A stretch of DNA of 64,000 nt from Sipunculus nudus (lineage: Eukaryota; Annelida; Sipuncula; Golfingiida; Sipunculidae). Positions 522 to 52,683 of the stretch are shown piece after piece. The stretch's first letter is position 1. Every line of letters starts with the position of its first letter. The notes below the pieces were generated by a model. That model saw only the letters and a program-made list of their open reading frames with translations. It was not told the origin of the DNA and made no database searches. Both the position numbers and the translations under genes were made by a program. The stretch lies in NCBI GenBank assembly GCA_026874595.1, contig CM049321.1:6563979-6627978 (forward strand). The letters run 5' to 3'.

Positions 522-629
522 TAGTACTGATGATCTTGTAACAAGCGCTGGTTCACCGGTTTCAAATGACATGGCCGGACACCACATATTTGGTGAGAGC
601 TACGCCGTCCAATGGGCCGACGAGACAGA
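522..629 (+). CDS. VWD-domain gene (plus copy): last exon of VWD domain 1
   Basis: Exon of 108 nt between a pyrimidine-rich acceptor ending at 521 and a GTAAGG donor at 630. It reads as one base, 35 codons, then two bases. The peptide begins STDDLVTSAGS and contains FGESYAVQW. It aligns with the equivalent exon of the minus gene (PEDDVMTSDGS, then FRRSWRV) and has the same start and end phases. This is the C-terminal strand region of a VWD domain, after the CGN(F/Y)NG motif; the exons carrying the rest of domain 1 and the signal peptide would lie left of base 1. A second AG three bases downstream (522-524 is TAG) makes a NAGNAG acceptor, and both choices keep the frame. Confidence 0.75.
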
Positions 630-1587: not shown

Positions 1588-1595
1588 CTGTCCAA
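1588..1595 (+). CDS. 8-nt microexon of plus VWD gene
   Basis: Eight bases (CTGTCCAA) between a strong acceptor (a T-rich run ending CAACAG at 1587) and a perfect GTAAGT donor at 1596. With the flanking exons it reads D-C-P-R: the first base completes GA from the previous exon, then TGT and CCA, and the last A joins GA of the next exon at 4285. The minus gene has a microexon of the same phase at the same place, which also supplies a cysteine after the domain. Phase, splice signals and homology support it; transcript data are lacking. Confidence 0.6.
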
Positions 1596-4412: not shown

Positions 4413-4526
4413 GAGACGTATCGACGAAACGTCATAGACGAGCGTCGTGGCGTCAGCTTCGTGAAGCGACTCATCATTCAGCACAATGGAGTAGAGTACA
4501 GCATGTACCCAAACTCTCTCAATGTG
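4285..4526 (+). CDS. Plus VWD gene: first exon of VWD domain 2
   Basis: Exon of 242 nt with acceptor TTTCACAG (ending 4284) and donor GTGAGT (4527). It starts with two bases completing a codon and ends in phase 0. The peptide opens PWGFCSVVLDPHG, has DGAEFKV and DVCTYDLA, and then ERRGVSFVK and HNGVEYSMYP. This is the N-terminal half of a VWD domain: Cys, then the Asp-Pro-His of the usual GDPH motif, then the G/D-x-C-x-Y pattern. It is about 60% identical by eye to the minus gene's domain 2. VWD domains act in secreted proteins in calcium-dependent folding and multimer formation; the role here is unknown. Confidence 0.88.
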
Positions 4527-5734: not shown

Positions 5735-5916
5735 GGTAATGGCGTTGTGAACAGTGATGCTAATTTCGACTGTAACTTCGGGAAGTACAAGTTCTGCTGT
5801 GTTTCAAGAAAGACACAGTTCAAGGTTTGCTCGGATCGTAAATTGTCTTTTTACCTTTACTACGGGCCCTACTTCAATAATGCCCTGTCTGGCCTGTGTG
5901 GAAACTTCAATGGCGA
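5735..5916 (+). CDS. Plus VWD gene: second exon of VWD domain 2
   Basis: Exon of 182 nt with acceptor TTTTTGCAG (ending 5734) and donor GTAAGT (5917). It begins in phase 0 with GNGVVNSDANFDC and ends with two bases (GA). Motifs are KYKFCC, KVCSDRKLSFYLYYG and the VWD hallmark LCGNFNG. Cysteine positions match the minus gene exon at 37,551-37,741 one for one (C, CC, C, C). Confidence 0.9.
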
Positions 5917-8143: not shown

Positions 8144-8224
8144 TCCTTCTGACGACTACTTACTCCGAGGAGGGGGTGCGGCTAACGGAATGGAAGACTT
8201 TGTAAAGAGCTGGGAAAGGCCGAA
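8144..8224 (+). CDS. Plus VWD gene: third exon of VWD domain 2
   Basis: Exon of 81 nt with acceptor ATGTTTTAG (ending 8143) and donor GTAAGT (8225). Its first base completes an Asp codon with GA of the previous exon, giving CGNFNGD. It then reads PSDDYLLRGGGANGMED and FVKSWERP and ends with two bases (AA). PSDD after CGNFNGD and the FxxSW motif are usual for the end of VWD domains. It is too short to appear as a long open frame and is identified by phase and homology with 32,342-32,434 on the minus strand. Confidence 0.85.
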
Positions 8225-9306: not shown

Positions 9307-9316
9307 CTGCCAGTGA
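9307..9316 (+). CDS. Plus VWD gene: terminal exon, stop codon
   Basis: The acceptor TCTCTTAATTGCAG ends at 9306. The first base completes AAC (Asn), then TGC CAG TGA follow: N-C-Q-stop. The minus gene ends the same way (D-C-stop, 30,773), so the cysteine just after the domain is conserved and the very short coding part is probably real. The protein thus ends right after VWD 2. An alternative use as a 14-nt internal exon (donor GTGATG at 9321) would contain the in-frame TGA. Confidence 0.6.
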
Positions 9317-29975: not shown

Positions 29976-29985
29976 AAGCTAATTG

Positions 29986-30428: not shown

Positions 30429-30434
30429 TTTATT
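30429..30434 (-). terminator. Candidate polyadenylation signal (AATAAA) of minus VWD gene
   Basis: AATAAA on the minus strand about 340 bases after the stop codon at 30,773. It is one of several possible signals in AT-rich sequence. Confidence 0.35.
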
Positions 30435-30772: not shown

Positions 30773-30779
30773 TCAGCAG
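30773..30779 (-). CDS. Minus VWD gene exon 10: terminal coding part
   Basis: The acceptor on the minus strand is TTTTTTAATCCATAG, ending next to 30,779. The first base completes GAC (Asp), then TGC TGA: Cys, stop. The parallel ending of the plus gene (N-C-Q-stop) supports it. The 3' untranslated region would continue towards about 30,400. Confidence 0.65.
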
Positions 30780-30919
30780 CTATGGATTAAAAAAGGAAGA
30801 ATGTTTATAAAGTAAAAAATAACGAACAATGAATGATTTGTGTTATCTTATGGTTGCCATGTAATTATATTAATAATTAAGAGCTTAGATAAATGCTGTA
30901 TTTTTGTAGAGGTACTAAT

Positions 30920-30974
<55 letters not shown>

Positions 30975-32700
30975 TAAAGCTATTCTGGCATACATTTGAA
31001 CCATTAGGCTGCAACTACGATCATTTGCAATGCCAGAGAAAATTTAAGTCGTTTAATTCTAAAGTCTGTTTTAAATATATACCATGCAACTCCTACATCT
31101 TTTACAAGCAAATGAACAGATTTTAAAAAAATGGATACATGCCCTGGTTGTAATAAAAGTATATTTGACCTAGCTCAAATCACTGAATTGATATTGCAGA
31201 AGTCCTGTTTATTATATAGATCAACATTCGGGCGTATTTCATATATGTTTAAAAACGTTAAAATACTCGTCAAGGCAAATTCCGCCTAGGTCGTTGGTTT
31301 GTGCGTCTTATACCACTTACAAAAGGCACATGTAAACCGGTTTGAATACGTTTTGAATGCGAAGTGAGCGTTCACACGCCAATCCAATGCGTTTTCAAAC
31401 AGTGTTGTCCAAAACGTTTAGGATCAAGCTCATGAGGTAGTTTCAAAGCGTTTGAATGCGTTTTTTATCCGCTCTGCTAATATAAAAGTGTCGAGTGAAC
31501 GCTCAATAAGGGACATTGCTAATACTGTCGTGTGTTGTAAAACTGCAGGCAAACAACTAGTGGCCCAAGCGTCCATCTGCCCAGCCCATTCATTAAGCAC
31601 GAAACTGTAGGCACCAGACATAGTGTTTTTTTTTATTGCCGATCTTCTTTATACTTATTATTTTTCATATTTAGTATGCCGTGTTAAACTTGTTAAACTT
31701 ATCACAGAAACATGAAAAAACATCCGATATTGCCGTTTTTGGCACATTTTACATTAGAATTTGATCTTAAAACAACTGCCTTGTAGTATAATATAATTGA
31801 AACCTACACAGGGCCTTCAGTCATAGATAAACGTCAGATTTTCCAAGCTTCCTTGAATTTGTCATATATACAAGTACCAAAGAATTGTAACAACTTATTT
31901 ATTCAATGGTCATCTTAATTAGATAGAGTTCATAGCTTATATATAAGCTAACAAAATAGGAATTGTTAATTCCGTCTGTGCTCATGAGTGTCCGGCCGAA
32001 TTATGCTTGCCTACGAAAAACAGGTTTCCTGCTGCGCCAGCCAGTCGTGTCTCCTCTACCTACACGAGTGCATCATTATAGATATCCCGTTTTTACATAA
32101 AAAACGGTTTAGACCTAATTTTCAAGCAGCAAATAGGTAAGCGCAATCGAGACTGCTTGTGTCAACATGTTGTTACATTGTTCAAAACGTAAAATGTGCA
32201 CCGCATGTATTGGTGCGAGATGGCCGTGAGAACGCACAACACGGATTCAAGATGATTTGGTCAAACCGCTTTTCATTTTAAAACTACTGACATTTATAGA
32301 AAATAAATTTATATATATATCAGGAATGAAACCATACTTACTCTGAAGACTTCCAATCATCAACGAATACCTCCATTCCTTTTGACTGGTTACCCACGTC
32401 AGTTCCGTTCCTCAGTATGTAATCATCGGTAGACCTGCAATATACCAAATTAAATTCATTTAATTTCAATTTATATATGTTATCCTTTTATATAATACAT
32501 TTTAATATATATATATATATTTTTATAGCAGTTTAAAGTATATGCCCTCTCGGTATTGTCATTAACTTTGGTAGGATTTAAGGGGAGAGACTAAATTTGA
32601 CAGTAGATCAACCCAAACACGAAACATACATTATGTAAAGAATATTTTCAATTTAATTTATAATATTGTTTAAAATTTAAACCTCTTTAAATCATAAATA

Positions 32701-32756
<56 letters not shown>

Positions 32757-35700
32757 ACTAAATGTTTTTAATTGGAACACGGAAATAAAGCAATCAATAA
32801 TGAAACAGTTGCATCTGTATTATTGCAAATCGATTTATTTCCAGTTGTTATTTTATCATGTATGTTATTTATTAAATATATCTTCTATCATACTATAATT
32901 GTTACTATCAGATAGTGTCTATACATGAAGCAAACGTTGGGTGAGAGGGTTGCGCCTTTCCTTGTCCCCTATTGCTAGGGCCCTGGCATTATTTTTTCTT
33001 AGAATACTCTATTCATAAGCAGTATAAGAATAAAGAAAAACTGCATTTGTGACATAAATGTAATAATAAAACAGCATTTACTAATTGCGCATTAATTTGG
33101 TTTGTTCACTAATCATGCATGACTCTTTCAAACATAAGTATTTTCATTTTAACTTAATGAACAATGTGTTAAACTGGTTTATAATAATTTTAATTAGTTA
33201 AACATAAAATGCATATAGATTAGATAAATGTAATTCTGAAGTTCACTAAATCAGTCGCTTCCATACAATATACTTGATAGTTCTTTGAGTCCACGTAATG
33301 TATGGTTGCAACTTTTGTAAAATTATTCCGGTATAAAAATTGTTAGGGTATATATTACATTGTTGTATAAATACATGGTGTTGTCTAACAGAAACAAGGC
33401 AGCTGTATGCCGCTTGTATGCATGTTGTGTGATGTTAAATCAATACGACGGGATCGAAGGGGGTATTGCAAAGAAAGGTATTATATACACATACCACATG
33501 GAGAAATGGGAACTTATTTTGAATTTTGAGACGGAGGCCTGTTGCTCTTGAAGCTGCACTTTTGCAGATAATTTCAAGTATGTTTTATAGTATGACTATT
33601 GTGTATGTATTGTGAATAAAAAATGGTAAAATGTACAAGTTGATCACACAAATATAAAAGAATAATGTTTGCATTTTTTTTCTCTTTTGTCTACTTGTAT
33701 CAGAACAAAGTGTTAAGTTTATAACCTTATTATGTGACGAAAAATTATATTATTTATTCCCCTATAGGCATATTTTTTTTCAAGTCAATGGCGGGTAAAG
33801 ATTATTTACAATTTAAGAACTGACATATTTAGAATTACAGCCACACTTCACCACTTATACGTGTACAGATGTGATTCTACTCCACGTTGAAATATGCCAT
33901 GTAGAATTGGAATATCAAGATTTCATTCATACATGAAAAATATTTCTTAAGATGATAAAATAAATTAAAAAGGAAAAAACTGACTTCTTTTAAAGATCAG
34001 ACTGTAAAGACTATTGATGAATGGAACTGGTATAAATGAATTATTTTTTTTACTAGCTACGTATATGCTTATACAGTGTCCTTTATATTATTAGGAGCTT
34101 GTTCTCGCATCTCCCATGTATTATATACAGATTATCTCTTGTATCTTTTAAATGAAGCAGGCCAACCTTAAGTTACCAAGGCTGTTAATATACAGGTGAT
34201 TATAACAAATCCAAAAAGGACAATCTGCGACAAATCAAACTTACGCATAACTTAAATGTGACGTTACTTTATGTGCTCTCACCAACAATAACCGATAAGT
34301 TGTCAGTAAGTACGTAACCAGCCATATTTACTTTCCGTTTGTCTTCAGTTACAAATGCTCATGTTTATTAATAACTATTGATAATCAAACAAAACATGCG
34401 TCACAATTACATTATAAGAGATCAGCCCCAGGTCATTCATATTTACAGTGTGCCTGTAATAAATATTCTTCATATTAATCAGGTTGATAGGTGGCTTTAA
34501 TGTGTGAAAGCAATTAAATTCCAGTAATTAGGGATTTGGAAATATGAATGGGACTTTTACAAGTCGTTACATTGTAATGTTTCTTTACTAAATGTCTTTA
34601 ACCATGTGGCAATCTTTAGAAGTCAACGTTAACTCAAGATCTACTAGAACATTTACTGTTCTGCAGTATAATGGACTCATAATGCTTATCAATTTATTTA
34701 TGACATTTACAGAGCAGCAATTTTATACATCGAGCATGTTTAAAAGCACTTTACATAAAAAAATGAAGAAAATCAACGCAAAGGAGATACTGAACGTTGA
34801 AAACCCCCAGATTCAAGCTTTATATTCAAGCAAATAAATGAATTTATAATCTATTATCTAAAGCCAAAAAGGAGTAGAGGGTGTGATTTGCTACTTAGTC
34901 ATATACAGAAGAGAATTTTTGATTAACCACTAGCATATATCCTGATGAACTAATAATAGCAAAACAAAACTGTGCTAAAAAAGGGGAAGGTATTCATTAT
35001 CTGAAAATTGTAGGCCAATATTATTTTACCAAGCATTTCAAAAATATTTGAAAAAGTAATATACCATTAATTATATGAATTTCCTCAAGCACACGATTAA
35101 CTATGTAAGAACCAATATGGATTGAGAAAAAACATTCAACCGAACATGCAGTATTAGAATACGCAGACAGAATATTTATACAAAATGACCAAGGAAACAC
35201 ATCCCTCTCTATATAACTTATCTAAAGCATTTGACAAATTAAATCATAACATGCTTATTCATAAACTAGAATTATACGGCATTAAAGAAGAAACACTACT
35301 TTGGCTGATTATTATCTAACTAACAGAGTTCAATATGTCGATTTTAAACGACATAAGTCAAATAATTATCTTTTTCTACTGGTGTACCTCAGTGATTCAT
35401 TTAAGACCACTTCTTATACTTAAAATATATGAATCGCATTAATCATTGCAGTAGCTTCTTTAATTTCATTATCTATGCAGATGACACAACATTATTGAAA
35501 CCCTTAACAAAGTACAATACACAAAAAGACCATAGTATCATCAACAATGAATTATGCAAAGTACATAACTGGTTAACTGCAAACAAACTCATAAAATGTA
35601 AAAAAAAAACTAATTTCCTGATATTTCTCTCTAAAAAATGACATACAAGAAGGCAGCCTTGAACTTAAATTGGATAATGTATCTATAGACAAGGTCTCAG

Positions 35701-35827
35701 ATTTCTACTTTTTTTAGGTATTGAACTGCACGAACATATGAAATGACAAACATACATTAACAAAGTTTCAACCAAAACTTCAAAATATATTGGAATATTA
35801 ACAAATTAAAACATTATCTACCTATTT

Positions 35828-35877
<50 letters not shown>

Positions 35878-38800
35878 ACACTTATTCTATCACAATTTAA
35901 TTATGGAATTCTTATATGGGGCTTTGTTATTAAAAGACTAGAGAAACTAAAAGGAAAAGGCATTTTAACAAAAAGCAAATACCATGCCCACACTGAACCG
36001 ATTTTTAATCATTTAATTCCTTTCTCCTTTTGTCATGCACAGGTGGCTGTAGTGTCAGTGGATTAAAATAATCCTTAACAACAGCCTCCAGATATAACAA
36101 GTGGCCCATGGGCCATGACGCTCAACTGAACTTGAAATACAAAGATTGTATTTTAAGATGTATTTGAAATATGATAAACATCAAATTTTTAATTATTCTG
36201 TTTAATGCTTCTGAGCCCCATAGCTCGGGGAATATGGGTAACAGAGACCTAATTTCAGATTTCCAAAGAGATATATCCATGAACCTCCTTTGATGTCAAG
36301 TTAGAAAATTCCAGGTCCAGTGGAAAGGAATTGTGCCATGTTAACAGTTCACATTTTCATTGTCTAAAAGAACAAAAAACATCATTTAAATTGGACAAAA
36401 TATCAATGTTCATCCACATATTCATGGTGATCAATGCAGTAGTTATTCAGATACTTGAGCTTTTGTATCAAAATTTTGATTATTGGGGGGGGGGTACTTA
36501 ACAGCCCCATAGCTAAAAGAATATTAGCAACAGAGACCTAATTTCAGGTTTTCAAAGAGATTTTTTTCATGGACCTCTCTTGATGTCAAGTAAGAAGATT
36601 CCAGGCACAGTGGTTACGATTTGTGCCCTGTTAACAGATGACCGCATCTTAAGAAGTTTCAAAAATGGAGAATAAAAATTCGTAAAAATCGAAAAATACA
36701 GGTGGCGCCACCAGACTGAAGATACTGATGAAACATTCCATGATCAATAAATATGCAAATAATCATGATGATCAATGCAATAGTTGTTCAGTTACTTGAG
36801 CTTTTGTATCAAATTTTCCATTATTCTTGTGGGTATTTCGGAGCCCATAGCTCAGAGTTAATGAGTAACAGAAACCTAATTTCAGGTTATGATAGAGACT
36901 TTTTATGGGCTTCCCTGCATGTCAAGAGAGAAGATTCTAGGTCCAGTTGTTAAGATTTGTGTCCTGTTAACATATAAACGCATCCTAAGAGTTCTCAAAA
37001 GTAGAGAAAATATTCGTAAAAAATAAAAAAAAATACAGTTGGCGCCCCCAGTCTGCAGAAACTGATGAAACACTCCTTGATCAATATCCATGCAAAAAAT
37101 CATGGTGACCAATGCATTAGTTCATCAGATACTTGAGCTTTTGTATCAACTTTAGCATTATTGTTGGGGTACTTCGGAGCCACATAACTCAAAGAATATG
37201 GGTAACAGAGACCTAATTTCAGGTTTCCAAGGAGATATTTATGGACCTCCCAGGATGTGAATTTAGATTCTAGGTCTAGTGGTTACGATTTGTGCCTGGT
37301 TAACGGACGGACAGACGGACAGATAGACGGACGCCGGACAAAGGGTGATCGCTATAGCATAGATGACTTTCAGTCAGCTGAGCCAATTAAAACTAAAATA
37401 TTGACATATTGAATATATTTGATATGGATACTTTACTTTTATGTCGTATAAAATATTCTCTCTCTCGCTTGACTTTTATATGCCTAAAACAAGTGAGTCT
37501 AGATGCTGATTAGGCCTTTTAGAGGATTCAACAAAACAAAATCAACATACGAGCCATTGAAGTTTCCGCATAATCCATTGAGTCCATTTTGATACGCATT
37601 ACCAAAGTAAAGGTAGAATGAAAATTTGCGATCCGAGCAAAACTTGAAAGGGCTCGTCTTTGAATCGCAGCACAGTTTGTATTCCCCAAACGAGCAATTA
37701 ACGTTCAAATCGCTGTCCGGAAGCGTCACAACGTTGCCATTCTGTGAACAAAAGAATATTAAAATTGATGACGTTATTTTGAAAAAGTAATGTATGCTAA
37801 TTTCTGCTCCACTAGTCTGTTTCCACCTGCTTTCTGTATCACACTTTCGAGATTTTTATGAAATATTTATCGTTGTTCATGTATTGGTTTAGCCTGTCTT
37901 TTTGCAACTTTATTAAAAATGATATATATACATAAAATGGAAGTCAGTATAACCTTAGCTACGTTCAGCTTAAATATTTTTAAGAATCTATTTGTTTGGA
38001 TATATATGTATCTTTATATCCGGCACTGCCAATTTGCACAGGTATTTTGCTTTAGTGACTGTTAGCAATTTTACTCAAAATATATGCTCGGCTTTTGATT
38101 AAAAATAATGGTAGACCATTCAGTCTCACACTTACTGGACAATCCAGTCAATTTGTTTTTATTCTCTAATCTCAAGGATTATTTAAATTTGGGAGATTTG
38201 TTCACCTTGCCCGTCGATTATTATGAGGGTACTATACAAATATATCGTTAAATGCATATAGAATTATTACATAACAGATTCATCCTCTGAGAAGTGAATA
38301 CATCTTGCATTAATACCTTGTGGAAAAGTCAACTCACCACAGAGAGTGCATTGGGGAACATTTCGTAATTATCACCGTTGTGACTTATCATTATTTTTTT
38401 CACAAAACTGATGCCTCGACGTTCGTCTACGATGTTTCTTCGATATGTCTGCATACCAACACTGAAGTCTCCGTTAGTCGCTACAGCCAAATCGTACGTA
38501 CATACATCGTTGACCTGGAATATTTGTCCATCTGGTGTTTCTCCGTGTGGATCTAGCCTCACCGAACAACATCCCCACTGCTGAGAAGGTGCAGTCGTTG
38601 TTTGTGGTGCTCGAGAAGATGATGTCGTTGTTGTTTGAGCCTGGGTGATTGTCGTTGATACTGGAAGTGGTTCTCCGCCAGCTGCAAAGTAATGGACACA
38701 TTAAAAAGAGCCACTTTTTTTTCACATTAACATTTTTTGGATAATCCCAAACTCGCTCTGTGATTGGTTGACAGCAGTAAGAACAGAACCCAGGAGAGAT

Positions 38801-40230
38801 ATTTGTATCCGAATGGTAAAGCTGTGTCCCTCCTATACAAATTGATTACAATCTCAGAATCTAATGTCATCAGTGTTCACATTTTCCTGTATTTTCACAC
38901 AGTCAAATACAAACAAGCGCGCACCAAGCGGGTGTTGGAGGAACTAATTAGTGCAACCATATACATTTATATCTGCCTTGCAATTTAACTGCTTCTTTCG
39001 TAGTTCAGCAAGTTCCTCTTACAGTAGCCAATCATTCTGACATTCATTTTTTAAGAATATACATGATAACATATCAAGCTTATTTTCATATCCGAATTAA
39101 TAATATGAAAGAAAAAAGAAAAGAAAGAACATTTATCACCGAACAAAAAACTTGACAGTTCCTATTTAACAAATAAGGAGGGATATTATTTTCTAAAATG
39201 GGGCCGTAATTTTTGCTCAGAATGTCAAATTGTCCATATACATGCGAGTAGATACAAACGAGAGAAGATGAAAATTTACTATTTTTTTTATAGTATATAT
39301 ACATATATATGAGTGTGTATGTGTATGTGTGTTGGTGCGGGAGTGTGTCGGTTTGCTTCGTAGGGTATTGTATTCAGTTTTGCCTGTCCATTAGAAACAA
39401 AAGTAAATAGTAACAAAATGACATCATATATTATCATTTGTATATATAGCAAGCATAATATATGACAAGATTCCATATTTTTAATTAGTCGGCCATTCTA
39501 GTGTGAATAATACTTTTTCAGGAAACATGCCTCTGTATAATTTGCAAAAAAGTGATTAAAAATAATTAAAATATTAAAAAAATACAAATAAAAAATAAAG
39601 TAATAATTTCTTTGTATTTTAGATTGTAATTGGCGCTTTTGCAAGTGGCTGTAATTGTAAGGATTACCTTTTACTGAAATCAGACCCAACCCAAGTACTA
39701 TTAGGCCTTCATTTAACGTTTATGGTTAATTTTTATAAGCGTTTAGCTCTGTACATTTTACTCAAGATAAAGTATTTTAATTTTATGATAAAAAAAATAG
39801 AGAATTCATATTGTAAGCATACTCACTGGTGGTCTCACACCTGTAAGAGAATAAATAACAATTATTTAGTAATTACTTACGTGTTCTTTGAATTAATTTT
39901 TCAGCCAATTACTAATGCTCGATACGGATGTCATGTATGTGTATTCCACTACCAAGTCAGCGAATGAAATAGAAACAACCGATCCTTTGGAGTGTGTATA
40001 TTGTTCACTTAAACGGACATACTAGCATGTTGGCCATGTCAGCTAAATAAGTCGTATGTTTATATATATGCATACATGTATGTACGAATATATGTATGTA
40101 GGTATGTCTTTATATGTATGTATGTACGTAATTTAAACCTCGTTCCAAAATCCTCCTTAATGCATTTAAAATTTTGATATTTTCACCTAATGTTTATTTA
40201 TTACCAGCTGACGATTTTAAAAGTTTTTCA

Positions 40231-40316
<86 letters not shown>

Positions 40317-43300
40317 GATAGAAAGAGTATTGTTTTCCTATCCTTATATGTAAGGAAGTAACTTACCCCTCTTCATTTCCAACCCTCCAGCTTCTTCTAA
40401 AGACTTCTTCATTTAATGCTTGAGACCCATCACTTGTCATGACGTCATCTTCGGGTCTTAAATACAAATTAACTAAATTAATATTATTAAGTACCCACAG
40501 GACGCTTTTTTTTTTAGTTTTTAAATACGTCTTTATATAAACTATATAACATGATTTACTTGACATCAGCAGAGAACTCATAATGGCAAAAGTACCAAGG
40601 ATGCGACATATTTCTTATTTTGCTGCTCAATCATCATTATGCAGGTATAGGTGTTTTATTAAAAACAACTTAGTGAACAAAACAATAACTAAACGTTTGA
40701 CGTGCAAAATGCGGGGTCAATAAACACTAAACCTATGGACCCACATTTTTGTGGACCTATACTTTTTTGCAAGATGCAAAATTTGTTTGTGTGAAACACA
40801 ATATTCAGTCGTGCAATCTTCTTCCTGTTAATTAACATGCAATATGATTTAAAGTCATATATAGAACGCAAACACAATAACAGAGTTAAAAAGAAATATT
40901 AAATATTTGCCAGAAATAGGATTTTATTATATTCCTCATTTTCACTAATAAGGAAGTGGGACCTCCTGCCTGAAGCGTTAACTAAAATAAAAGAGTGATA
41001 TTAATTCAAAGTAGTTATATGTTCGTTCTTTTATATGTAACTGTTGCGACCCGAATTCTGTAGTCTATTGTAGAGCACAGGACCCTACGCCCGGATGTCG
41101 TGAGCTCGAAGATGCGATTTCTCATGGGTGACCGCTCTGAAAGTTTAATTGGAAGGTTTGGCGCCACAGCCGTGTTTAAGTTACAAACTAGTTTTTTATT
41201 CTAATGTACTTTATATAAACAAATCCGGTATTTCTAATTTTATCTGCTCTTATTTTGATATTAGAACCATTTCTTGTATTCGCACATCGGTACGTTAATT
41301 AGAACCCACTTTCCCTGTATATATTGTATAAAGTTTGATAAAACAGGGATGTGGGTGCACTTAATGAATGCTCTTTAGCTTAATGTTTAATTTAATAAGG
41401 TATGGACGAAAAATTCGTGTTACCTTTATTCATTATGTAATTGACCCAAACTAACCTCCCGTTGTAGTTACCACATAACCCGTGCACAAGTCCGGGATTC
41501 TGCTTCCACTGATCATCCAGACATATTTCTAGGCCTTGTCCCCCTTCCAACTTCATCCTAACAGATTTGGCGACAATATCAAACTCTAAAATGTTCCCAC
41601 TTTTTTTTATTCTGATATCGCCGTTGGCGTAAGCTTGAAACTGGTCCGTTGGGTACTCAGGCTGGTTGTCCTGGTGCAGAAAGGGAAAAAAAAACAAGAA
41701 ATCAAATATTAGTGGGCCACAATTTATCTGACAGCTCATATAGAACATACAACATATACATGTTTTTCCTTCATTGGCAAACGGCCAATGGTGTCAATCA
41801 ATCTAACATAGATGTCTCGGACAAATATCCCTTTCACCATTGAATCAGGTTCCAAGTCCGCACAAGTTAAACGGACTCGAGCTCGAGAAATAAGTCCGAG
41901 GTTATATCGAATTAAGTAAAAAAAAAACTACGTTACATTTTACTACCAACAAAATATTATACAATCGGCTATTATACTAAATTTTAGCAAAATGTTATTT
42001 ATCTTTAAAGTTTAAAAATATTAACATTTTGCTTATCATTTTGATTATCTAAATATTATTGGTAAACCGCTAGTTCTGTAAATAAAAACATACCACTAGA
42101 AGAGCTGATTCTGTCATTATGTACTCTACTCCGCCATAGTGTACCCAAACTCGTTCAGGAATAAAATAACGATTATTGTAACGTTCTGCGTCTACCCAAA
42201 CGCTGAAGGTCCTTGCGTTATCCGACACGAAATTGTAGGTACAGTTGCCTTGAAAATAATTTGCTGGGCGATCGTCGAATGGCGCGTAGATTCCAGAACT
42301 CAACATGCAGCAACCTACCGAAATATTACACAATTTGGTTTAGGCTTTGCGTAGGTAGTTATGAGCTGATATTAATATTGATAAATATATTAAGCGAATG
42401 GACAATTACGAGCATTGACATCTGTGCGTAATGGTATTGACCTAGAATCAACTTGGAGACACGAGCACAACGCGTCAAATTTGCGCTAGTATGGAAATAT
42501 GTTTTCCAAGGGCAGTGTGACAGGGTGTACTTCCACCAACGCCGGCAAAACGTGAACCTAAGCACAAGGATGGCCATTAATACTAATAAATGACTTGCCT
42601 TCCGCCGGATATCTTGCAAAAGGTTTACGTACGGGGGCATACACACACAAATACACACACACTTATGACATTAATCAAAGTAAAAGAAAAAGTGGATAGG
42701 TATACCAACTAGGTTTCTGTATTCTTTGTCCTATTTGTATTTGTCTTGTGTAATTATTTTGAACAAAGTATGAGCATTATACATTATACACTTATAATAA
42801 ATGGAGACATGTCAAGTGTTGTTGTGCAAAACGCTTGTGTTTTATTTCAATATACGCGTTTTTGTAAGTACCGCGAGAAACTATCAGTGTTTAAGCTTAA
42901 GACACTCGTGGTTTACGATAAACATAAGACGCGTTTCATGCTGGCTGTTTATAACCCGATAAAGTTTATTAGCTCTAAATGCCACCTGATCGTCTGTCTA
43001 TCCATCTGCCTGCCACTGACAATTTTACGATAATGATTCTGCTGTATATCAGACTCATGAGTGGACACAAGTTTATCAGGAATTACCTTTCTTCATTATT
43101 GTACAGGCACTAGACCCCAAAATACTCTAGTCTTGCTTTGTTTAATTCAAGATTAAAGCCCTTTACATACACCAGCGAGGGTTTGAAAACAGACCAGAGA
43201 AAATTGAAGTCAGTCAGTTGAAGCCCAGTTTAACAGTGAAGCTGACTACAGCTGGTATGTATACACTGCTCTGTTTGTTTCCATTTCTAATTGCGCACAG

Positions 43301-46300: not shown

Positions 46301-47960
46301 ATGACAAAAGAAACCTAAGAAAACTAAAAAAAATAATAAAAGAATAACTTGTTATGCTTTAGAAAATGATTCTTATTTTTTCTTATAATTTTAAAAAGGG
46401 AACTGAAAGCCAGGTCGAGCTTGCTGTCATCAAGTTTGCTGGAAAGAGCTCCGCATTCGACAAAGGGAAAGGCAGCAAAACTAAACCAATTGTGACAGTT
46501 CTGCAGGTATGTAATATTAATAGTATTTTCCTTTTGTTATCTCTGATGCTGCAAACAACTGTTATCCATCATCAAATTGTATGTAAACAGAGCGGACACA
46601 AATCAAAACTGTTTGAGCAAGAAAATTTTAACTGAATAGCCAAGGAGGTCCTAGGGACACCTTGATTAATTGAAATTCGGTCAGGGGGAACTATACTCTG
46701 AGCTACGGGGATGTGGGAATCATAATGCCCAGAAACTTAAATTTGCAGTCAGGTGTTCTTTCCTGTGTATTTTGATCACATGCTGTTCAAGTAAATATTA
46801 GTTTTGCTATACTATTGAAAACCACTCTGTGGTTTGATTATCCATGTGGTTGTGTATTGTCATTTCATGGGATAGCAGAATTCGAATTGGAAAGACAGCT
46901 ATAAAATCAAAGAAAAATGTTTCACCCAACCTCAAAGCGTTCCTGGAGGTCTAGGGATATATGACGGATGGTGTCAATCTGGCGGATGGCATACACATGT
47001 TCACCAGAAGTAACAGTATTGTCCAGGCTTTACACTATCTCTATAGCTATATTATATGTGTAACCTGGACTTCCCCAGGAATTACTCAATTACTGTGGGC
47101 ATCTTCTAACATATTATGTTGCGGAACGATATTGACTTCAAGAAGTATAGCTTGAAATATCAAAATTTTAAACTATATTAGGAAGACGAGATGAAAAAAT
47201 ATGACGAATCCTATAGACTGGTATATCTTATTTCATAGTGATAATTTTAAATTTTCAAATTATAATGATTTGACCTAGAAACTTCTATCTTAGCATCCAG
47301 GGAGGTCCTGGGGAAATTTCCTTGGAAATCCGATATTATGTCACTGTATACTATTTTCTGCATATTTAAAATTGTTTGGCCCAAACATCACACTCGTGTA
47401 TATACAATGCTGTTATATGAATGTTTTACCCTCAACCAAAAAAATGGAAGGTTTTGCTACAGCCCCTTATATATCCTTGTCACAATGTGCAATTTGAAGA
47501 ATCTTTTACTGCCAGTTCTTCAGAACTGTTGTGGACACAATTGTAAAAAATTAACATGTTGGGCAAAAAATGTCTGAAATTAATATTTTAGGTCAGATAT
47601 CTCAGTATTGATTGCATCAATTGAACTGCAGTTTCGGAAAGCTTTCAGATCTTGAACACCCTTATGACCTCTCTAAGACTGGTGTTATGTGCTTGAGGTC
47701 ATTATTTCTATCTTAGGATATTTTAAAATTTAAATTGTCAATTTAATGCAACCTTCAGGCTTAACAGATTTTCCCAATAATTTCTCAAAGTTTGGCCAAG
47801 TATCAATTTTACCTTCATGCACATTAAGTGTCGCTTTGCAAAGTTTAAACAGTAAGAGGTTGATACCAGCTTTTCATGGTTTTCATAAATATCAACAACA
47901 GGATTGTAAATTTCACTAAAGATGACACTTTTCTACCACTTACTCTACAAATAACAAATG

Positions 47961-48002
<42 letters not shown>

Positions 48003-48256
48003 TTTTGAGAAATTTGATTTATTGACAGTTTTTTTTAGACAGACAAGAAAGTGATTGTAAAAGTCGCCTTATATGTTGACCATATAAGATTTATTATTGG
48101 ATATGTGAGACAAGTACTGCCTGTAGAAATATAGCCTTAGAAATATATCTTACTTTAAGCTGTACTGAGCTATAGATATATGTCCTATACCATATGTGAA
48201 AATGATATAATCTATTCACAAACAATGAACCAGCATGGCTATTCATTCGTATATAT

Positions 48257-48320
<64 letters not shown>

Positions 48321-51300
48321 TGGTGGCTATTGTCGAGTAAATGCAAGAATAAGGTATAATGCATTTCTGTAAGGATTTTTTACCTGTTTACCTGTTTACC
48401 ATCGTTTAGTATTCAACATGCGGTCCCGCTTATTTTTTTAAGAATTGTTTTGAGAATTCACTTTTTTAAAAAAATTCTGATATTCTGCAGTGTTTAATAA
48501 GATTATATACCTGGTGGTAACCTGTTGTACCTTTACCCATCTATTCATTATTAGCAGGGCACGAACTGTGACATATATTTATAGTGCAAAGGATATTGTA
48601 GAGTCAATGCAGGAATAAGGGTTAATGGAATTCTATAGGTATTTTGCACCTGTTTACCATCGTTTTTATTATGCAGTTCTGCTTATTTTATGAAAGTGTT
48701 CTGAGACATCACTTCTTTTCATAAATTTCTGATTTTCTGCAGTGTTTGAATAAAATTATATACATGGAAGTGTTCTGAGACTTCACGTCTTTAGAAAAAT
48801 TATGATTTTCTGGAGTGTTTGAAAAAGATTATACACCTGATGTTAACCTGTTTGTTTGAAAGATCATGGTTCAGCTACCAATTCAATTTTTTTACATCAT
48901 ATATTTTGCATTCTATTTTATTGCCTTATGCGTATTATATTATCATTGTATTTTTTCCTGTTTTGGTAATAGCTTTGTCTATATAATATTTTTTGTCTGT
49001 ATCTGTAAATGTCAAAGAGATACTGCATTTTATGTCATTGTGCAATATGACCATGTTTTGATGAATTGATAATAAAACACTAGTGAACAATACCAAGTAA
49101 TATTACTTATTTTGCCTGGTCATTTTTATCCTGAATGATGCATGTAGTAATCTAAATAATTCCAGATCAAGCCAGAGGCTATACAGTCAGGGACCTCATT
49201 GACCAGATGACACAACTATTGTTACATAAACCCTTTTTTGGAGGTTAAGTCATGTAATATCAATCACTCAACCAAGAAAATAAACATTATACTTGTATTA
49301 AGATGGTGTTTACATTTTTTTTATATTAACTGTAGACATATCTTTCCAGGTATTACAACACATAATCTCTTTAAGCTATAATTAAGACGTCATTCTGAAA
49401 AAAAAACTTGACATGTTTACAACTGACTTCCAAACACACTAGACGTGTTAAACTATAAACGCTAGACGTGTCTATCAGCAATTTATGGCCAGGATTACTA
49501 ATATTAATATTACTTTCGCCAGGTTTGATGAGACATTGGTTAGTTATAACCATGTAAACCATGATTCTCAGCCAGACCTAGTAAAAACGTTCTTCCTTTT
49601 ATATTATCATTAATCTTGCACGTTTATGTCATTTAAATTTTAAAGATTCATTTGATAGTTTATTATTTAGTTGTTTGAACGTTATAGGACGGCATGGCTT
49701 TTTAGTTCAACTGATCAATTGACAATATAACAAGAAATGTTATTTGTAATGTTATGGTTTTGTTTATACTGATCTCGATAATAGGAGGAATATATTTTTG
49801 AACTGGTACCGCTTGGTTGAACGATTGCAGGAATATACGAAAAAAATTAACAATTGAATTTTTCAAGAATCAAGGTAGTTTAATTAAGTGTAACGGGTCT
49901 TAACTACTTTAGAAGGACATGTTTATACACGGGATAAAAAAATATGACATAAACTTACAAGAAACCTACAAATACAAAGATAGTTGGAGGACCATGTTAA
50001 AATGAGTGATAAGGGAAATATAACATATAACCATAACAGTACAGAACTGACATAGCAGGTGTAAAACTTCTTCCAGAAGCATTTTGTTTACTTGTGTAAT
50101 ATTTACTCACCAATCCTTGCAAGTAAACATCATATGTTTTAAAAGGGAATCAGAAAAACATAACAGCAGCTTGGGATAATTAAGGATATTTATTTTATAA
50201 TGGAAGGATATTTTTATATTGATATAGAATATATTGATCTGTTGGTAAACAAAATATTAAATTTAAATGGGGAGATTATTTGAAAAATATAGCCAGAATA
50301 GACACTTCTAGATCTATGGAGACGGAGAAATGAAACTGAAATATTTCACATGGACCGAAAAGCAACCACCAATAACAGGTAGATAAGACGTGTTCGCTTT
50401 CAATATTTAGAAGACTTTTTTCACTTGAGATGAAATATTACCACCGCAACGTGAGACCATGCTAAATTTCATTAACAATATGAAACTGTCGTTGAATATC
50501 CCTGGCGAAGAAATATGGGAAATTAAATGATAAAAAAAAGTAGAAGAGGCTATTGTCAGATCTTAAGTTAATATGGAGATAGAGGTACAAGATACTTCTA
50601 TCAAATGGAGAAAAGAAATAGCACTAGAAAATATATTCAGAAATTAATATGACAGTCAATCTTAGTTGTTGCAAGTAAAAAAAAAATCTATTCTGGAGAT
50701 TCCGAAAACATGTTTTGATAATCTTTATAAAAGAAGGAAAGTGGAACACACCTGTTCGGAAGATCAATAACTATTAGACAACTTAACCCAAAAAAAAACT
50801 TAAAACTTCAGAGAAATGGCTATTGGAGGGACCAATACTATTATTAATTGCCAAAATAGAATTACACATTAAAGGATAGTGTCTCCAGGAAATGATGGGT
50901 AAAATGCAGAATGTTATATATATATGTATATATATTTTTTAAAAAAAGTAGGATTTTTTAATTAACGATTTGTTCAATAGATCACTTCCTCTCGGTTAAA
51001 TGTCTCTCTCTCTCAAATCAGTCTGTTATAAAACTTCTGTCTATGAAAGTTAATGTAAATTATTATTAAAATTTGGAGACAAATTTTCCTTTTAAACAAT
51101 CATTATAAAAAAGAAGCCAAGGTTATTAAAGAAAGAATAAGAAAATTCTACCTTCAACTATTAGTACTGATCAACGAGGTTTTGTTTAAAGCAGATAAAC
51201 AGGGGAAGCATTAAGAACAGTTTTGGACACAGAATATCTTAAGATAATTAATCAACAAGGGGTACTACTCAGTATAAAGTTGGATAAAAACGCTTTGATT

Positions 51301-51985
51301 TATTGGAATGGAATAATGTCAAAGGTTTTGAAAATATCTTATATGGAGGAAATACAAGTTCATAGGTCAATTTTTTTCATACTAACATTTGTGTATGTAT
51401 AAAGAAAAATGGATACTCTTCGAGTTGTTTACAGAAACAAAATATTGTTACCCACTCTTCCCAAATGTGGCATTGAAATATCAGATTCGTGGAATGCCTT
51501 TAGATAAACACAGTGTGTGTGTGCATTTTCGTCTGATTGTTTTTGTTCCTGCTTATATTTGTTGTTCCCATTCTTTTGTAAATGTTTATTTTGCATAATT
51601 ACAATATATATATATAGAAAAACACTGTCTTAAACTTTGGTGAATAAGAACATACCGAAATCGTTTTTATTCTGTTTTGATCCTGATCATGACGAAAATA
51701 AACAGTGCAGAACGTAACCGATATTTACGTATGAAATTTCAGAGTAAGGATTTCAAATTGTTTAGTTTCATGATTACTTTATAACACAATATAAATCATA
51801 ATGTAAGTTCGGGAACAATTTAAAGTTTTACCGACAGGGAATGGGCTGGGGTAAGGTGAAGGACCAGGTGACTCGTAAGTATATTTGATAGTAAAATAGA
51901 AGTAATATAAATAGAAGCAAAGTGATAACAAAATTAGACTCAATCTGGGACAGGCCCGCCTTTATATGCATCCCCCGTAACAGCC

Positions 51986-52024
<39 letters not shown>

Positions 52025-52683
52025 TGTAGACCCCCCCCCAAATAAGGCCGCCTTATATAGTCAGAAGTCATCTTACCGTTTCCGCCTCGAGCTTGCTGTG
52101 CTGAAACTAAAAGAAAAGATTGATAATAATGTTATGTTTGAATTATCACAATTTTATAACTAGTGTTGGTAACAACTCTCCTAATTTCACGATAGCAATC
52201 GGTTTCCAAAGACATAAGATAATGCTGGAGGTCATCTCCAATCAGAAAACATATTTACTTTTGTATGACTGCATGGTTTGCGCAAAATTCCTGCTATATG
52301 TCCCTTTTCACATTTTATGTTTATTTGGTTTATAATACGGGACCTCGCTAATACTGATATGCCATATCTCAAATTTAACCTTTGAGCATGATATAAGTCA
52401 TGGTTATAGGTGATCACCCAATATTTGTTTCTCTCGTTGGATTAATTCCGAAAGTCTTACATTAGAAAAAAATTCTTGCTTTTAGTCATTATTAACTAAT
52501 GTAAATAACACCACTGCATAATATGAGATGATAAGAGTCCTCTTTATCTCCTGTAGTTTAATTAACCACTTTATCGTCCATTTTCTGAAGCTTGAGCCAT
52601 GGACTTGTTTCTAAGCTTTGAAGGCAAATAGAAAACTTACCTAGCAGTACCAGTAGCGGGAGAAGGATTCCCTCGCCTTGCAT
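30773..52683 (-). CDS. Complete two-VWD-domain secreted protein gene (gene span)
   Basis: Ten exons: 52,683-52,641, 52,106-52,077, 42,314-42,094, 41,670-41,456, 40,456-40,367, 39,840-39,827, 38,681-38,338, 37,741-37,551, 32,434-32,342 and 30,779-30,773. All have GT-AG borders, and their phases add to 1,248 nt without an internal stop. The 415-residue product has a signal peptide (about 1-20), VWD 1 (about 25-200), a Thr/Ser/Pro linker (about 201-239) and VWD 2 (240-415), which ends in a cysteine followed by stop. It would be secreted; the linker is likely O-glycosylated. VWD domains usually come with C8 and TIL modules (mucins, VWF, zonadhesin), which are absent here. Paired VWD domains without them occur in a few secreted proteins, for example ostracod luciferase, but nothing here indicates that activity. 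The gene faces the plus paralogue tail to tail. Confidence 0.8.
30925..30971. repeat. (TA)n microsatellite
   Basis: Pure TA array of about 47 bases within the last intron of the minus VWD gene. Confidence 0.95.
31430..31621 (-). other. Open frame of 63 codons, unrecognised
   Basis: ATG-to-stop frame starting MSGAYSFVLNEWAGQMDAW. It lies in a CpG-richer part of the last intron of the minus gene. Composition is protein-like, with no domain I can name. It may be a fragment of a DNA-transposon protein or chance. Confidence 0.2.
32342..32434 (-). CDS. Minus VWD gene exon 9: end of VWD domain 2
   Basis: Exon of 93 nt (acceptor TATATTGCAG, donor GTAAGT at 32,341-32,336). One base, 30 codons, two bases: S-STDDYILRNGTDVGNQ, then MEVFVDDWKSS. 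It matches the plus gene exon at 8,144 (PSDDYLLRGG, FVKSWERP). The first base completes Ser from TC of exon 8. Confidence 0.88.
32704..32753. repeat. (TA)n microsatellite
   Basis: Pure TA array of 50 bases in the intron between exons 9 and 8 of the minus VWD gene; a shorter one is near 32,500-32,521. Confidence 0.95.
32755..35035. other. Intron stretch without other supported features
   Basis: AT-rich sequence of the 5.1-kb intron of the minus VWD gene. Short frames (33,360-33,551 and 34,592-34,837 on the plus strand) show no domain or splice support. Confidence 0.5.
35040..36010 (+). mobile_element. CR1/Jockey-like LINE remnant: reverse transcriptase region
   Basis: Broken reverse transcriptase read in several frames. 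In order: TVLEYADRI-like start, then YLSKAFDKLNHNMLIHKLE and LYGIKEE, YLTNRVQYVDFK, a degraded GVPQ(GS) motif, then MNRINHC and the intact active-site region FIIYADDTTLL (35,470-35,505), followed by CKVHNWLTANKLIKC. The YADD box and its neighbours are typical of CR1/Jockey-type LINEs. Stops and frameshifts make it inactive. (TA)n at 35,830-35,874 splits it. The part after 35,880 is nearly identical to the element at 62,880. Inserted in an intron of the minus VWD gene, opposite in sense. Confidence 0.85.
35830..35874. repeat. (TA)n microsatellite inside the LINE
   Basis: TA array of 45 bases within the reverse transcriptase remnant, after the ILTN-like segment; expansion or insertion after the LINE arrived. 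Confidence 0.95.
36205..37345. repeat. Satellite-like array, four units of about 285-335 bp
   Basis: Units start near 36,210, 36,495, 36,833 and 37,163 and share CCCATAGCTC, GTAACAGAGACCTAATTTCAG, GACCTCC, GATGTCAAG, ATTCCAGGTCCAGTGG and TTTGTGCC(C)TGTTAAC. The array ends in GGACGGACAGACGGACAGAT and a CGCCGGACAAAG tail, which is a tail type I recall from dispersed repeats of marine invertebrates. The 36,480s hold a short G run. It lies in the minus gene intron. Confidence 0.8.
37551..37741 (-). CDS. Minus VWD gene exon 8: centre of VWD domain 2
   Basis: Exon of 191 nt (acceptor TTTTGTTCACAG, donor GTATGT). Phase 0 start, 63 codons, two bases. The peptide starts NGNVVTLPDSDLNVNC and has EYKLCC, KFCSDRKFSFYLYFG and LCGNFNG. 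It matches plus exon 5,735-5,916; the start is three codons longer. Confidence 0.92.
38338..38681 (-). CDS. Minus VWD gene exon 7: linker plus start of VWD domain 2
   Basis: Exon of 344 nt (acceptor TTACTTTGCAG, donor GTGAGT). Two bases, then 34 codons of Thr/Ser/Gln/Pro-rich linker (GGEPLPVSTTITQAQTTTT, then SSRAPQTTTAPSQQ), then WGCCSVRLDPHG, DGQIFQV, DVCTYDLA, YRRNIVDERRGISFVK and MFPNALSV. Linker and first domain half share one exon, whereas in the third copy the linker is a separate exon (21,648) followed by a 3.5-kb intron. Confidence 0.92.
38700..39800. other. Intron stretch without other supported features
   Basis: Intron of the minus VWD gene between exon 7 and the microexon. It has a GT-rich tract near 39,308-39,345. 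Nothing else is recognised. Confidence 0.5.
39827..39840 (-). CDS. Minus VWD gene exon 6: 14-nt microexon
   Basis: GTGTGAGACCACCA between acceptor TATTCTCTTACAG and donor GTGAGT. One base, four codons (C-E-T-T), one base. It is required to connect exon 5 (two bases left) with exon 7 (two bases at start); without it the frame breaks. It supplies the cysteine that closes VWD 1 and begins the Thr-rich linker. The plus gene has an 8-nt exon of the same phase (1588-1595). Confidence 0.75.
40247..40317. repeat. (GA)n microsatellite
   Basis: GA array of about 70 bases with two A interruptions, following a short TA run. On the minus strand it becomes a pyrimidine tract starting about 45 bases after the donor of exon 5. 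Confidence 0.95.
40367..40456 (-). CDS. Minus VWD gene exon 5: end of VWD domain 1
   Basis: Exon of 90 nt (acceptor TTTGTATTTAAG, donor GTAAGT). One base, 29 codons, two bases: PEDDVMTSDGSQALNEEV, FRRSWRVGNEE. This is the C-terminal part of VWD 1, equivalent to plus exon 522-629. Confidence 0.88.
41045..41180 (+). mobile_element. tRNA-derived SINE head (family 1, copy 1)
   Basis: Box A-like TAGTCTATTG (41,061-41,070) and box B-like GAGCTCGAAGA (41,102-41,112). The stretch TAGAGCACAGG...GTGAGCTCGAA matches the minus strand of the SINE at 55,906-56,262 (TAGAGCGCAGG...GTGAGTTCGAA). Only the head and a short body are recognisable. Confidence 0.55.
41456..41670 (-). CDS. Minus VWD gene exon 4: centre of VWD domain 1
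   Basis: Exon of 215 nt (acceptor TTTCTGCACCAG, donor GTTAGT). Phase 0 start, 71 codons, two bases. The peptide starts DNQPEYPTDQFQAYANGD and ends VHGLCGNYNG, the VWD hallmark. It lacks the CC pair found in domain 2; domain 1 is the more diverged of the two. Confidence 0.9.
42094..42314 (-). CDS. Minus VWD gene exon 3: start of VWD domain 1
   Basis: Exon of 221 nt (acceptor ATATTTCGGTAG, donor GTATGT). Two bases, 73 codons. The leading GT joins G of exon 2 to give Gly, so the sequence reads N-G-C-C-M-L-S-S-G. The usual GDPH-like site is replaced by FDDRPANYF, followed by the G-N-C-T-Y pattern and VWVHYGGVEYIMTESALLV. Domain 1 thus has no clear Asp-Pro-His calcium site. Confidence 0.88.
42700..43320. 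other. Stretch without supported genes
   Basis: Part of the 9.8-kb second intron of the minus VWD gene. Open frames here (for example 42,746-43,033 plus) show no domain or splice support. Confidence 0.45.
43330..44007 (+). pseudogene. Decayed member of an uncharacterised multi-copy protein family
   Basis: A coding-like stretch with at least three frame changes and stops. In order: HYIIHLPVQLQQYGPLM, RYEAKHGFFKS, TNGKNSKNL, then a 68-codon open frame (43,601-43,804) with VNLVQEYPKYLKKTEDIPD and YEGESDSPIFVKLNF, then a shifted frame with LLVKQLALIGFN, YAVENVKYNVKQSDLEF and a last segment ending YVMLRSCYFVEPL before TAA at 44,007. The order (HYP-like, FGPL-like, MRFEAKH-F-like, NF-NLP-like, then C-terminal hydrophobic motifs) resembles, from memory, a protein family often annotated only as uncharacterised in invertebrates and fish. 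It lies in an intron and is not functional. Confidence 0.5.
44946..45305 (+). pseudogene. Broken coding-like block, unrecognised
   Basis: First part: open frame starting MDETVSQRLVTDKRSG, with GQGKRRRLFRTLAADT and DEYQESLGKLHKG, then a stop (45,160). A +1 shifted frame continues as IGKTGARQLSGIYTEE, RNEWLKTLADGT and LLEVFSCLSEIQY before GTAAGT at 45,301. The charged, helical composition and the good donor suggest a former exon with a frameshift. Family unknown. Confidence 0.35.
46390..46506 (+). other. Exon-like block, unrecognised
   Basis: Open stretch between AAAAAG and a GTATGT at 46,507. It reads GTESQVELAVIKFAGKSS, then AFDKGKGSKTKPIVTVLQ. Together with 44,946-45,305 it may belong to one old gene or retrocopy on the plus strand. 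No domain is recognised, and the acceptor is weak. Confidence 0.3.
46640..47340. repeat. Diverged copies of dispersed repeat also at 29.5 kb
   Basis: AAGGAGGTCCTAGGG (46,640s), TTCCTGGAGGTCTAGGGA (46,940s) and GCATCCAGGGAGGTCCTGGGG (47,290s) correspond to blocks near 29,490 and 29,890. Spacing is irregular, and there is no coding signal. Confidence 0.4.
47964..48319. repeat. Two (TA)n arrays
   Basis: TA arrays at 47,964-47,999 and 48,248-48,319, with about 250 bases of AT-rich sequence between them. Confidence 0.95.
48329..48860. repeat. Tandem repeat of about 255 bp, two and a half units
   Basis: Units share TATTGT(C/A)GAGT, AATGCA(A/G)GAATAAGG, CCTGTTTACCATCGTTT, GTTCTGAGA, TTTCTGCAGTGTTT and AAGATTATA(T/C)ACCTG. 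Starts lie near 48,329 and 48,590, with a partial unit from about 48,770. Confidence 0.8.
48866..49920. other. Stretch without supported genes
   Basis: AT-rich intron sequence. The open frame at 48,866-49,069 is rich in Phe, Ile and Tyr because of base composition. No feature is supported. Confidence 0.45.
49925..51420 (+). mobile_element. L1/Tx1-like LINE remnant (endonuclease and start of reverse transcriptase)
   Basis: Heavily broken ORF2-like sequence. The endonuclease part begins near 49,940 with INLQETYKYKDSW (compare LQETH in APE-type endonucleases). Further on, KIARIDTS-type linker sequence is seen. At 51,160-51,310 the reverse transcriptase entry motifs appear over three frames: LISTDQRGFV, TGEALRTVLDTEYLKI, QQGVLLSIKLDKNAL. 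These correspond to the ISPDQxGFIKGR, ENIR and LxLDFEKAFD blocks of L1-type elements. The catalytic centre is missing. Confidence 0.7.
51603..52076. other. Intron 2 end of minus VWD gene
   Basis: Holds a (CA)n run at 51,986-52,008 followed by (TA)n, and a C run near 52,030. A 40-nt proline-containing block near 51,831-51,870 looks exon-like on the minus strand but its phases do not fit (see rejected items). Confidence 0.5.
52077..52106 (-). CDS. Minus VWD gene exon 2: end of signal region
   Basis: Exon of 30 nt (acceptor TTTCTTTTAG, donor GTAAGA). Two bases, nine codons, one base: V-SAQQARGGN. VSA-QQ fits a signal peptidase cleavage site (A-x-A-like). The phase joins both exon 1 (one base left) and exon 3 (two bases at start). 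Confidence 0.7.
52641..52683 (-). CDS. Minus VWD gene exon 1: start codon and signal peptide
   Basis: ATG at 52,683-52,681. MQGEGILLPLLVLLG then donor GTAAGT at 52,640. This short hydrophobic run with a small polar start is a signal peptide, continued by V-SAQQ of exon 2. The start was chosen because the other upstream ATG (52,698) is in another frame and gives no hydrophobic sequence. The promoter must lie in the TA-rich region to the right; no TATA box can be singled out there. Confidence 0.75.

Follow-up and report, generated by a model that had tools for sequence, protein, structure and literature searches.

The minus-strand gene at positions 52,683 to 30,773 of the window, by which we mean the whole 64,000-nucleotide stretch of Sipunculus nudus DNA analysed (Chr16:6,563,979-6,627,978; gene coordinates are window positions), belongs to a large clustered gene family. 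From its sequence, we read it as a working gene for a secreted, disulfide-rich and probably O-glycosylated structural protein of the mucus or adhesive type, and put the probability of this reading at about 0.6. The gene first described here is real, and it is one of many rather than an isolated case.

The gene was rebuilt independently from the DNA by stop-to-stop reading and splice-site scoring, and the resulting structure was identical to the complete ten-exon, 1,248-nt gene of the original prediction. The ten minus-strand exons, from 52,683 to 30,773, sum to 1,248 nt and encode 415 residues plus stop, with no internal stop, GT-AG at all borders and matching exon phases. The product consists, in order, of a signal peptide, a VWD, a Thr-rich linker, a VWD, and a Cys followed by the stop. 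We refer to the first VWD of this gene as VWD1 and to its second as VWD3, with VWD2 being the middle type found in relatives. The exons are as follows.

Exon 1, 52641..52683, minus strand, 43 nt: ATG and signal-peptide core MQGEGILLPLLVLL, donor phase 1.
Exon 2, 52077..52106, minus strand, 30 nt: signal-peptide end, VSA/QQARGGNG; a tandem acceptor gives 30 or 24 nt (from 52100), in frame either way.
Exon 3, 42094..42314, minus strand, 221 nt: VWD1 first half (CCMLSSGIYAPFDD...CTYNF).
Exon 4, 41456..41670, minus strand, 215 nt: VWD1 second half, GLCGNYNG at its end.
Exon 5, 40367..40456, minus strand, 90 nt: VWD1 end (PEDDVMTSDGSQALNEEVFRRSWRVGNEEG).
Exon 6, 39827..39840, minus strand, 14 nt: micro-exon, phase 2 to 1, with the Cys expected to close VWD1.
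Exon 7, 38338..38681, minus strand, 344 nt: Thr/Ser/Pro linker and VWD3 first half (LDPHG).
Exon 8, 37551..37741, minus strand, 191 nt: VWD3 second half, four extra Cys, GLCGNFNG.
Exon 9, 32342..32434, minus strand, 93 nt: VWD3 end (STDDYILRNG...VFVDDWKSS).
Exon 10, 30773..30779, minus strand, 7 nt: CTGCTGA, the closing Cys and then the stop.

Related loci lie nearby. To the left of the window, P1 (window-relative -9320 to -4694) has a VWD with the canonical GDPHY motif and, after it, a C8 exon; its modules are VWD1, VWD2 and C8, with no VWD3 present before the start of P2, and P1 and P2 may be two genes or one. P2 extends into the window on the plus strand.

P2 first two VWD1 exons, about -1342 and -321, plus strand, outside the window.
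P2 VWD1 end, 522..629, plus strand.
P2 candidate 8-nt Cys micro-exon, 1588..1595, plus strand: phase 2 to 1; best of five candidates, about 7 bits ahead, its acceptor being common to three of them.
P2 VWD3 exon 1 (PWGFCSVVLDPHG...), 4285..4526, plus strand: 60% identical.
P2 VWD3 exon 2, 5735..5916, plus strand.
P2 VWD3 exon 3 (PSDDYLLRGGGAANGMEDFVKSWERP), 8144..8224, plus strand.
P2 terminal exon CTGCCAGTGA, Cys-Gln-stop, 9307..9316, plus strand: aligns and is conserved with P3 at window-relative 100,596.

Elsewhere in the window, positions 25212-25350 (plus strand) hold a truncated copy of the first VWD3 exon of P2 whose frame continues into unrelated sequence, and the sequence upstream of P3 has further matches to blocks at 17.4-25.4 kb; because of these two features the region looks like a scrambled duplicate. 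An endonuclease-like fragment lies at 56706-56897 on the minus strand (Pfam PF03372, E 6.9e-5, under the cut-off), and its assignment to the LINE type is a guess.

Evidence from the single gene is uneven, and the gene model rests on conservation. The exon-3 acceptor (0.45 bits) and the exon-8 donor (-0.81) score poorly, and exon 10 taken by itself is within chance, with an acceptor-Cys-stop present in 267 of 1,000 shuffled 1.6-kb stretches. The micro-exon 6 is the sole candidate of its type inside its intron. Exon 5 with the micro-exon fits the phase, the Cys and the VWD pattern, and for this reason an 80-nt exon considered between exons 4 and 7 was discarded. Searches of the 9.8-kb intron that separates exons 2 and 3 gave no additional VWDs. 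A chance assembly of exons is rejected by conservation, as every exon of the gene is matched by a counterpart in at least one relative. DNA searches with exons 1-2 gave three further places, each beside family loci, at 3.734 Mb (95% identity), 2.765 Mb (72%) and 18.274 Mb (66%, partial query). Exon 1, with start codon and signal peptide, is kept in two of these three relatives (C16:2,765,285-2,765,948 and 3,733,838-3,734,509) and was not seen in the alignment at 18.27 Mb; exon 2 is kept in all three, the 18.27-Mb copy having an in-frame 6-nt insertion. The 18.276-Mb locus shares 54.7% identity with exon 3 and 53.5% with exon 4, and exon 5 has relatives at 3.745 Mb, 18.278 Mb and C9 62.580 Mb. 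At both 18.278 Mb and 3.745 Mb, the micro-exon agrees in length, in phases and in its Cys; in the decayed copy at C9 62.58 Mb the DNA aligns, but no usable micro-exon candidate was found.

Exons 7-9 and the terminal exon also occur at 2.74-2.75 Mb and 18.29-18.30 Mb, with the exon 9 relative at 18.297 Mb. We looked for the terminal exon in seven loci (the window gene, 2.74, 18.30, 3.57 and 6.35 Mb, P2 and P3), and in six of the seven a Cys(-Gln)-stop exon directly follows the last VWD exon; the relatives' terminal exons were picked for a first Cys and for mutual alignment, and nearby acceptors score equal or higher, so that the evidence here is conservation and not score. It is CTGCTGA in the window gene, at 2.7426 Mb and at 18.2979 Mb, and CTGCCAGTGA in P2, P3 and at 3.57 Mb. 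For the 6.35-Mb relative, no acceptable terminal exon was found in the approximately 1.4 kb after the last VWD exon. Separately, aligned blocks between the window gene and 2.741-2.753 Mb of Chr16 are about 74-89% identical, yet the 3' ends of exons 7 and 8 show no differences along tracts of about 90-125 bp that reach or cross the exon-intron border, possibly through gene conversion.

Pfam analysis of the protein, run on a 405-residue version with exon 2 left out, returned only VWD (PF00094), in two stretches (E 4.6e-31, 108.7 bits against a curated cut-off of 22.9), in agreement with the claim that the product has two VWDs and neither C8 nor TIL. Each VWD alone scores E 1.8e-15 (about 58 bits), with an additional insignificant match of VWD1 to PF03633 (E 0.2). 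The two domains are only 26% identical, and as such do not derive from a recent internal duplication. Both CGNYNG...DD in VWD1 and CGNFNG...DD in VWD3 are intact, residues that we take to be the VWD calcium site. The GDPH motif is missing in VWD1, and VWD3 has LDPH, in which DPH is kept and the Gly is not. Self-cleaving GDPH VWDs are cut between Asp and Pro. In FCGBP D10, changing the Asp or the His abolishes or inhibits self-cleavage, according to excerpts of PMC10880436, which say nothing about replacing the Gly.

Of the 415 residues of the protein, 15 are Cys. None lie in the signal peptide, six are in VWD1, and VWD3 has the four expected Cys, four extra ones and Cys242. Of 16 translated second exons of last VWDs, 15 keep the four extra Cys and the one at 26.11 Mb does not. 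Among the rows compared, Cys242 is absent from 12 other LDPHG-type rows and present in all six GDPH-type last VWDs, and may therefore be old or a chance change. An odd number of Cys points to a single free thiol or to a dimer. The linker, of 36 residues with 13 Thr, 5 Ser and 4 Pro (22 Thr/Ser/Pro), is by its composition probably a short mucin-like, O-glycosylated spacer. The signal peptide of the original prediction is likely: a hydrophobic core can be read by eye, with V-S-A before QQ as the putative cleavage site, the n-region is acidic in the window gene, and the exons concerned are conserved in relatives.

That the protein ends right after its second VWD, as first proposed, is upheld by the search past 32,342 (minus strand 32,341-22,001), which turned up neither a C8 nor a TIL exon. 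On the minus strand, stop-masked three-frame Pfam scans over 22,001-38,337 and 38,682-52,640 gave no C8 or TIL, only VWD and a weak unrelated BCAS2 match under the cut-off (E 0.052), and tblastn with the C8 of the neighbouring P1 against the window gene region found no missed C8 exon. The same kind of scan recovered the C8 of P1 at E 2.8e-9, above the cut-off. An overlooked C8/TIL exon in the window gene is rejected on these tblastn and Pfam searches, which found none, with the reservation that a TIL split between exons could be missed, because the split VWD exons themselves scored under the cut-off in the scans. In the 3.3 kb behind the C8 of P1, no TIL was found. C8 and TIL after each VWD, the arrangement that defines a D assembly (VWD-C8-TIL-E), were not found in the gene. 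The original observation held that VWDs normally come with C8 and TIL modules; bare VWDs are, however, already known from the end of human FCGBP and from MUC4 and RGMB (PMC10880436, excerpts).

Searches of the genome (1,426,538,692 bases in 153 contigs) gave at least 102 exon matches with the whole protein as query and at least 119 with VWD2-C8, clustered on chromosome 16; scoring was limited to the best candidates in each search, which makes both counts lower bounds, and a missing C8 match is not proof of absence. First-type and last-type VWDs occur on the same strand no more than about 15 kb apart, and with no C8 match between them, in at least 15 places including the window gene, most of these read from matches without gene models. 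Eleven of the 15 lie at 3.57-6.39 Mb, and the others are P2, the window gene, one at 6.69-6.70 Mb (chromosome 16) and one on C9; at 5.7-6.4 Mb the first and middle VWD labels are close in score. Longer relatives occur on the same chromosome. Read as exon matches by place and not as transcripts, the order at 2.75 Mb is signal-peptide exons, VWD2, C8, VWD2, C8, Thr linker and VWD3, with no VWD1 match among the matches listed, and at 18.28 Mb it is signal-peptide exon 2, VWD1, micro-exon, VWD2, C8, VWD2, C8, Pro/Thr repeat linker and VWD3. The linker at 18.294-18.295 Mb of Chr16 is a tandem (PPPPPPPTTQA)n in one open frame with the VWD3 exon. In a quick tree of first-half exons, VWD3 of the window gene groups with those at 2.75 and 18.29 Mb (support 0.88), and the first-type VWDs fall together (0.94), with VWD1 of the window gene at their base and not beside that of 18.28 Mb (0.70). 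Other VWD/C8 matches, at C16:27.33-27.44 Mb, C15:54.10 Mb, C11:74-75.7 Mb and C3:24.3 Mb, probably belong to other VWD-C8 families.

The exon phases suggest how short and long forms may be related. The VWD1 exons run in phases 1-0, 0-2 and 2-2, followed by the micro-exon at 2-1. In P1, VWD2 starts in phase 1 and ends in phase 2, and the C8 exon begins with the split codon and then a Cys. By eye, a GTGAGT donor gives a phase-1 end to the C8 exon at 2.75 Mb and in P1, where C8 could also be the last exon, since the frame meets a stop two codons past this donor. On this reading, VWD1 with its micro-exon and VWD2 with its C8 exon are symmetrical 1-1 cassettes, whose loss, gain or exchange leaves the frame intact, and the bare two-VWD form accordingly looks like a short combination of modules and not a broken gene. 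A Cys heads the C8 exon, the micro-exon and the terminal exon at the same place. The end of VWD1 aligns with VWF in the region of this Cys, by sequence match; we assume that in VWF the Cys at that place is disulfide-paired with the Cys of the CTY motif. In VWD-C8 modules the C8 exon has this Cys as its first complete codon, and here it would be supplied by the micro-exon for VWD1 and by the 7-nt terminal exon for VWD3, so that each VWD should be able to close without C8. We tentatively propose, as a conjecture that could well be wrong, that VWDs in S. nudus are closed interchangeably, by a C8 exon or by a very small one with only the first Cys of C8. The 1-1 cassettes would be swapped between a fixed signal-peptide head and a linker-VWD-stop tail to give lineage-specific secreted connectors, the shortest having two bare VWDs and the longest four VWDs and two C8s, with polymer-forming capacity tuned by exon content.

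The family is under purifying selection, as seen from dN/dS of the window gene against the 18.28-Mb relative (0.37; 320 codons in exons 3, 4, 7, 8 and 9) and of P2 against P3 (0.40; 159 codons). Per exon against 18.28 Mb, dN/dS is 0.41 and 0.75 for exons 3 and 4, and 0.14-0.32 for exons 7-9. Silent sites are saturated between the window gene and P2. Against its nearest copy, the window gene has a dN/dS of 0.59 on 28 differences, with 1.7 in exon 8, where there are 8 differences. Among the near copies are several broken ones, exon 7 being frameshifted at 3.75 and 3.76 Mb and exon 8 carrying a stop at C9 62.58 Mb, so the family also decays, in birth-and-death turnover. Such broken copies, and the existence of long relatives, would fit the window gene being itself what is left of a longer VWD-C8 gene, truncated and dying. 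We consider this very unlikely, as its frame is intact with each exon kept in at least one relative, its dN/dS against the 18.28-Mb locus is below 1, and the same kind of end is found in six of seven loci, both long relatives included.

A working gene for a structural protein is the reading that we carry forward. In this proposal the signal peptide would send the protein out of the cell, and each VWD would fold as a disulfide-closed, calcium-binding beta-sandwich. Without C8 and TIL the protein would probably not build disulfide polymers like those of VWF or mucins, and it may instead link other mucus or matrix molecules as a two-headed connector, perhaps dimerising via the extra Cys. The family would evolve by tandem duplication with gain and loss of phase 1-1 cassettes, the window gene being a short form. 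A role in mucus or adhesion is suggested by family resemblance only: the best solved-structure match of the whole protein is FCGBP (E 5.9e-38), followed by VWF and mucins, and VWD-C8-TIL proteins are recurrent in aquatic adhesives (PMC8621496, excerpts). The original prediction rightly cautioned against inferring function from VWDs.

The same match to FCGBP would also suit a role in defence. FCGBP-type proteins are thought to aid the clearing of trapped microbes, and the family could be a diversified, FCGBP-like recognition or defence set of the coelomic fluid or mucus, its tandem copies having different binding faces. The number of tandem copies and the faster evolution of VWD1 than of VWD3 against the 18.28-Mb locus are consistent with this, as is the fact that, in the available part of the S. 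nudus genome paper (PMC10212961), the terms listed for expanded families include immune response. We nevertheless consider it unlikely, given an overall dN/dS well under 1. Less likely still is a gamete or egg-coat protein for species-specific egg-sperm contact. Zonadhesin has VWD arrays (PMC1325057, excerpts) and quick turnover of tandem copies would fit, but no Pfam family other than VWD, and hence no MAM domain, was found in the window protein. A luciferase-like enzyme of the ostracod type, which a signal peptide followed by two VWDs could recall, is improbable in the extreme. VWD1 does match PDB 24ne, "Luciferase" (537 aa), at E 2.8e-4, and from its name and this match 24ne would be the ostracod enzyme. 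This match is far weaker than that of VWD1 to FCGBP (1.7e-30), however, and there is none for the second VWD (E <=0.05) or for the whole protein (E <=1).

We favour the structural, mucus or adhesive type of protein, and the clustered family is a candidate for sipunculan mucus or adhesive chemistry. The S. nudus genome paper reports 543 significantly expanded and 717 unique families, and the word mucin is absent from its main text (PMC10212961, available part). Among the papers listed for sipunculans together with VWD, FCGBP, zonadhesin or mucin, no title or opening of an abstract describes such a family. Isolated VWDs are known already, but it is seldom possible to see how they arose beside VWD-C8 modules. 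In S. nudus, one chromosome holds both short and long forms whose head and tail exons are alike, with the C8 exon and the Cys micro-exons at the same kind of junction. Because the two forms coexist, the role of C8 in folding and polymerisation is testable within one family. Exons of 14 and 7 nt are of the kind that automatic annotation can miss.

The window gene resembles several known systems in part. Like it, FCGBP is a secreted mucus protein that ends in an isolated VWD without C8 or TIL (PMC10880436, excerpts). In FCGBP, however, 12 D assemblies precede the terminal VWD, and the window gene has none; even its relatives carry VWD-C8 modules, unlike the D assemblies of FCGBP, with no TIL behind the one C8 scanned (that of P1). 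The tandem D assemblies before a terminal isolated VWD that mark an FCGBP-like protein are thus not found in the window gene. Likeness to gel-forming mucins and VWF lies in the VWDs, and in the VWD-C8 modules followed by a Pro/Thr-rich repeat linker of the 18.28-Mb relative. In contrast to these proteins, no C8, TIL or cystine knot was found in the window gene and its linker has 36 residues; in place of a long PTS domain and C-terminal cystine knot, there is a stop right after VWD3. Polymerisation of the window protein through disulfides by the known route is as such unlikely.

The original comparison with ostracod luciferase is weak. The Cypridina enzyme is also secreted with two VWD-like domains, but it continues beyond the second of these with a region (453-553) whose removal sharply lowered production, and it has 34 Cys in 553 residues (PMC8859458, excerpts), whereas the window protein stops immediately and has 15 Cys in 415; the region behind the second domain that belongs to the luciferase layout is absent from it. 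The adhesive proteins of sea star (Sfp1), limpet and Macrostomum (ap1/ap2) are secreted and have VWDs, as has the window protein (PMC8621496, excerpts). These adhesive proteins carry C8 and TIL, with lectin, EGF, LDL or TSP-1 as well in Macrostomum (same excerpts), while the window protein is built from VWDs only.
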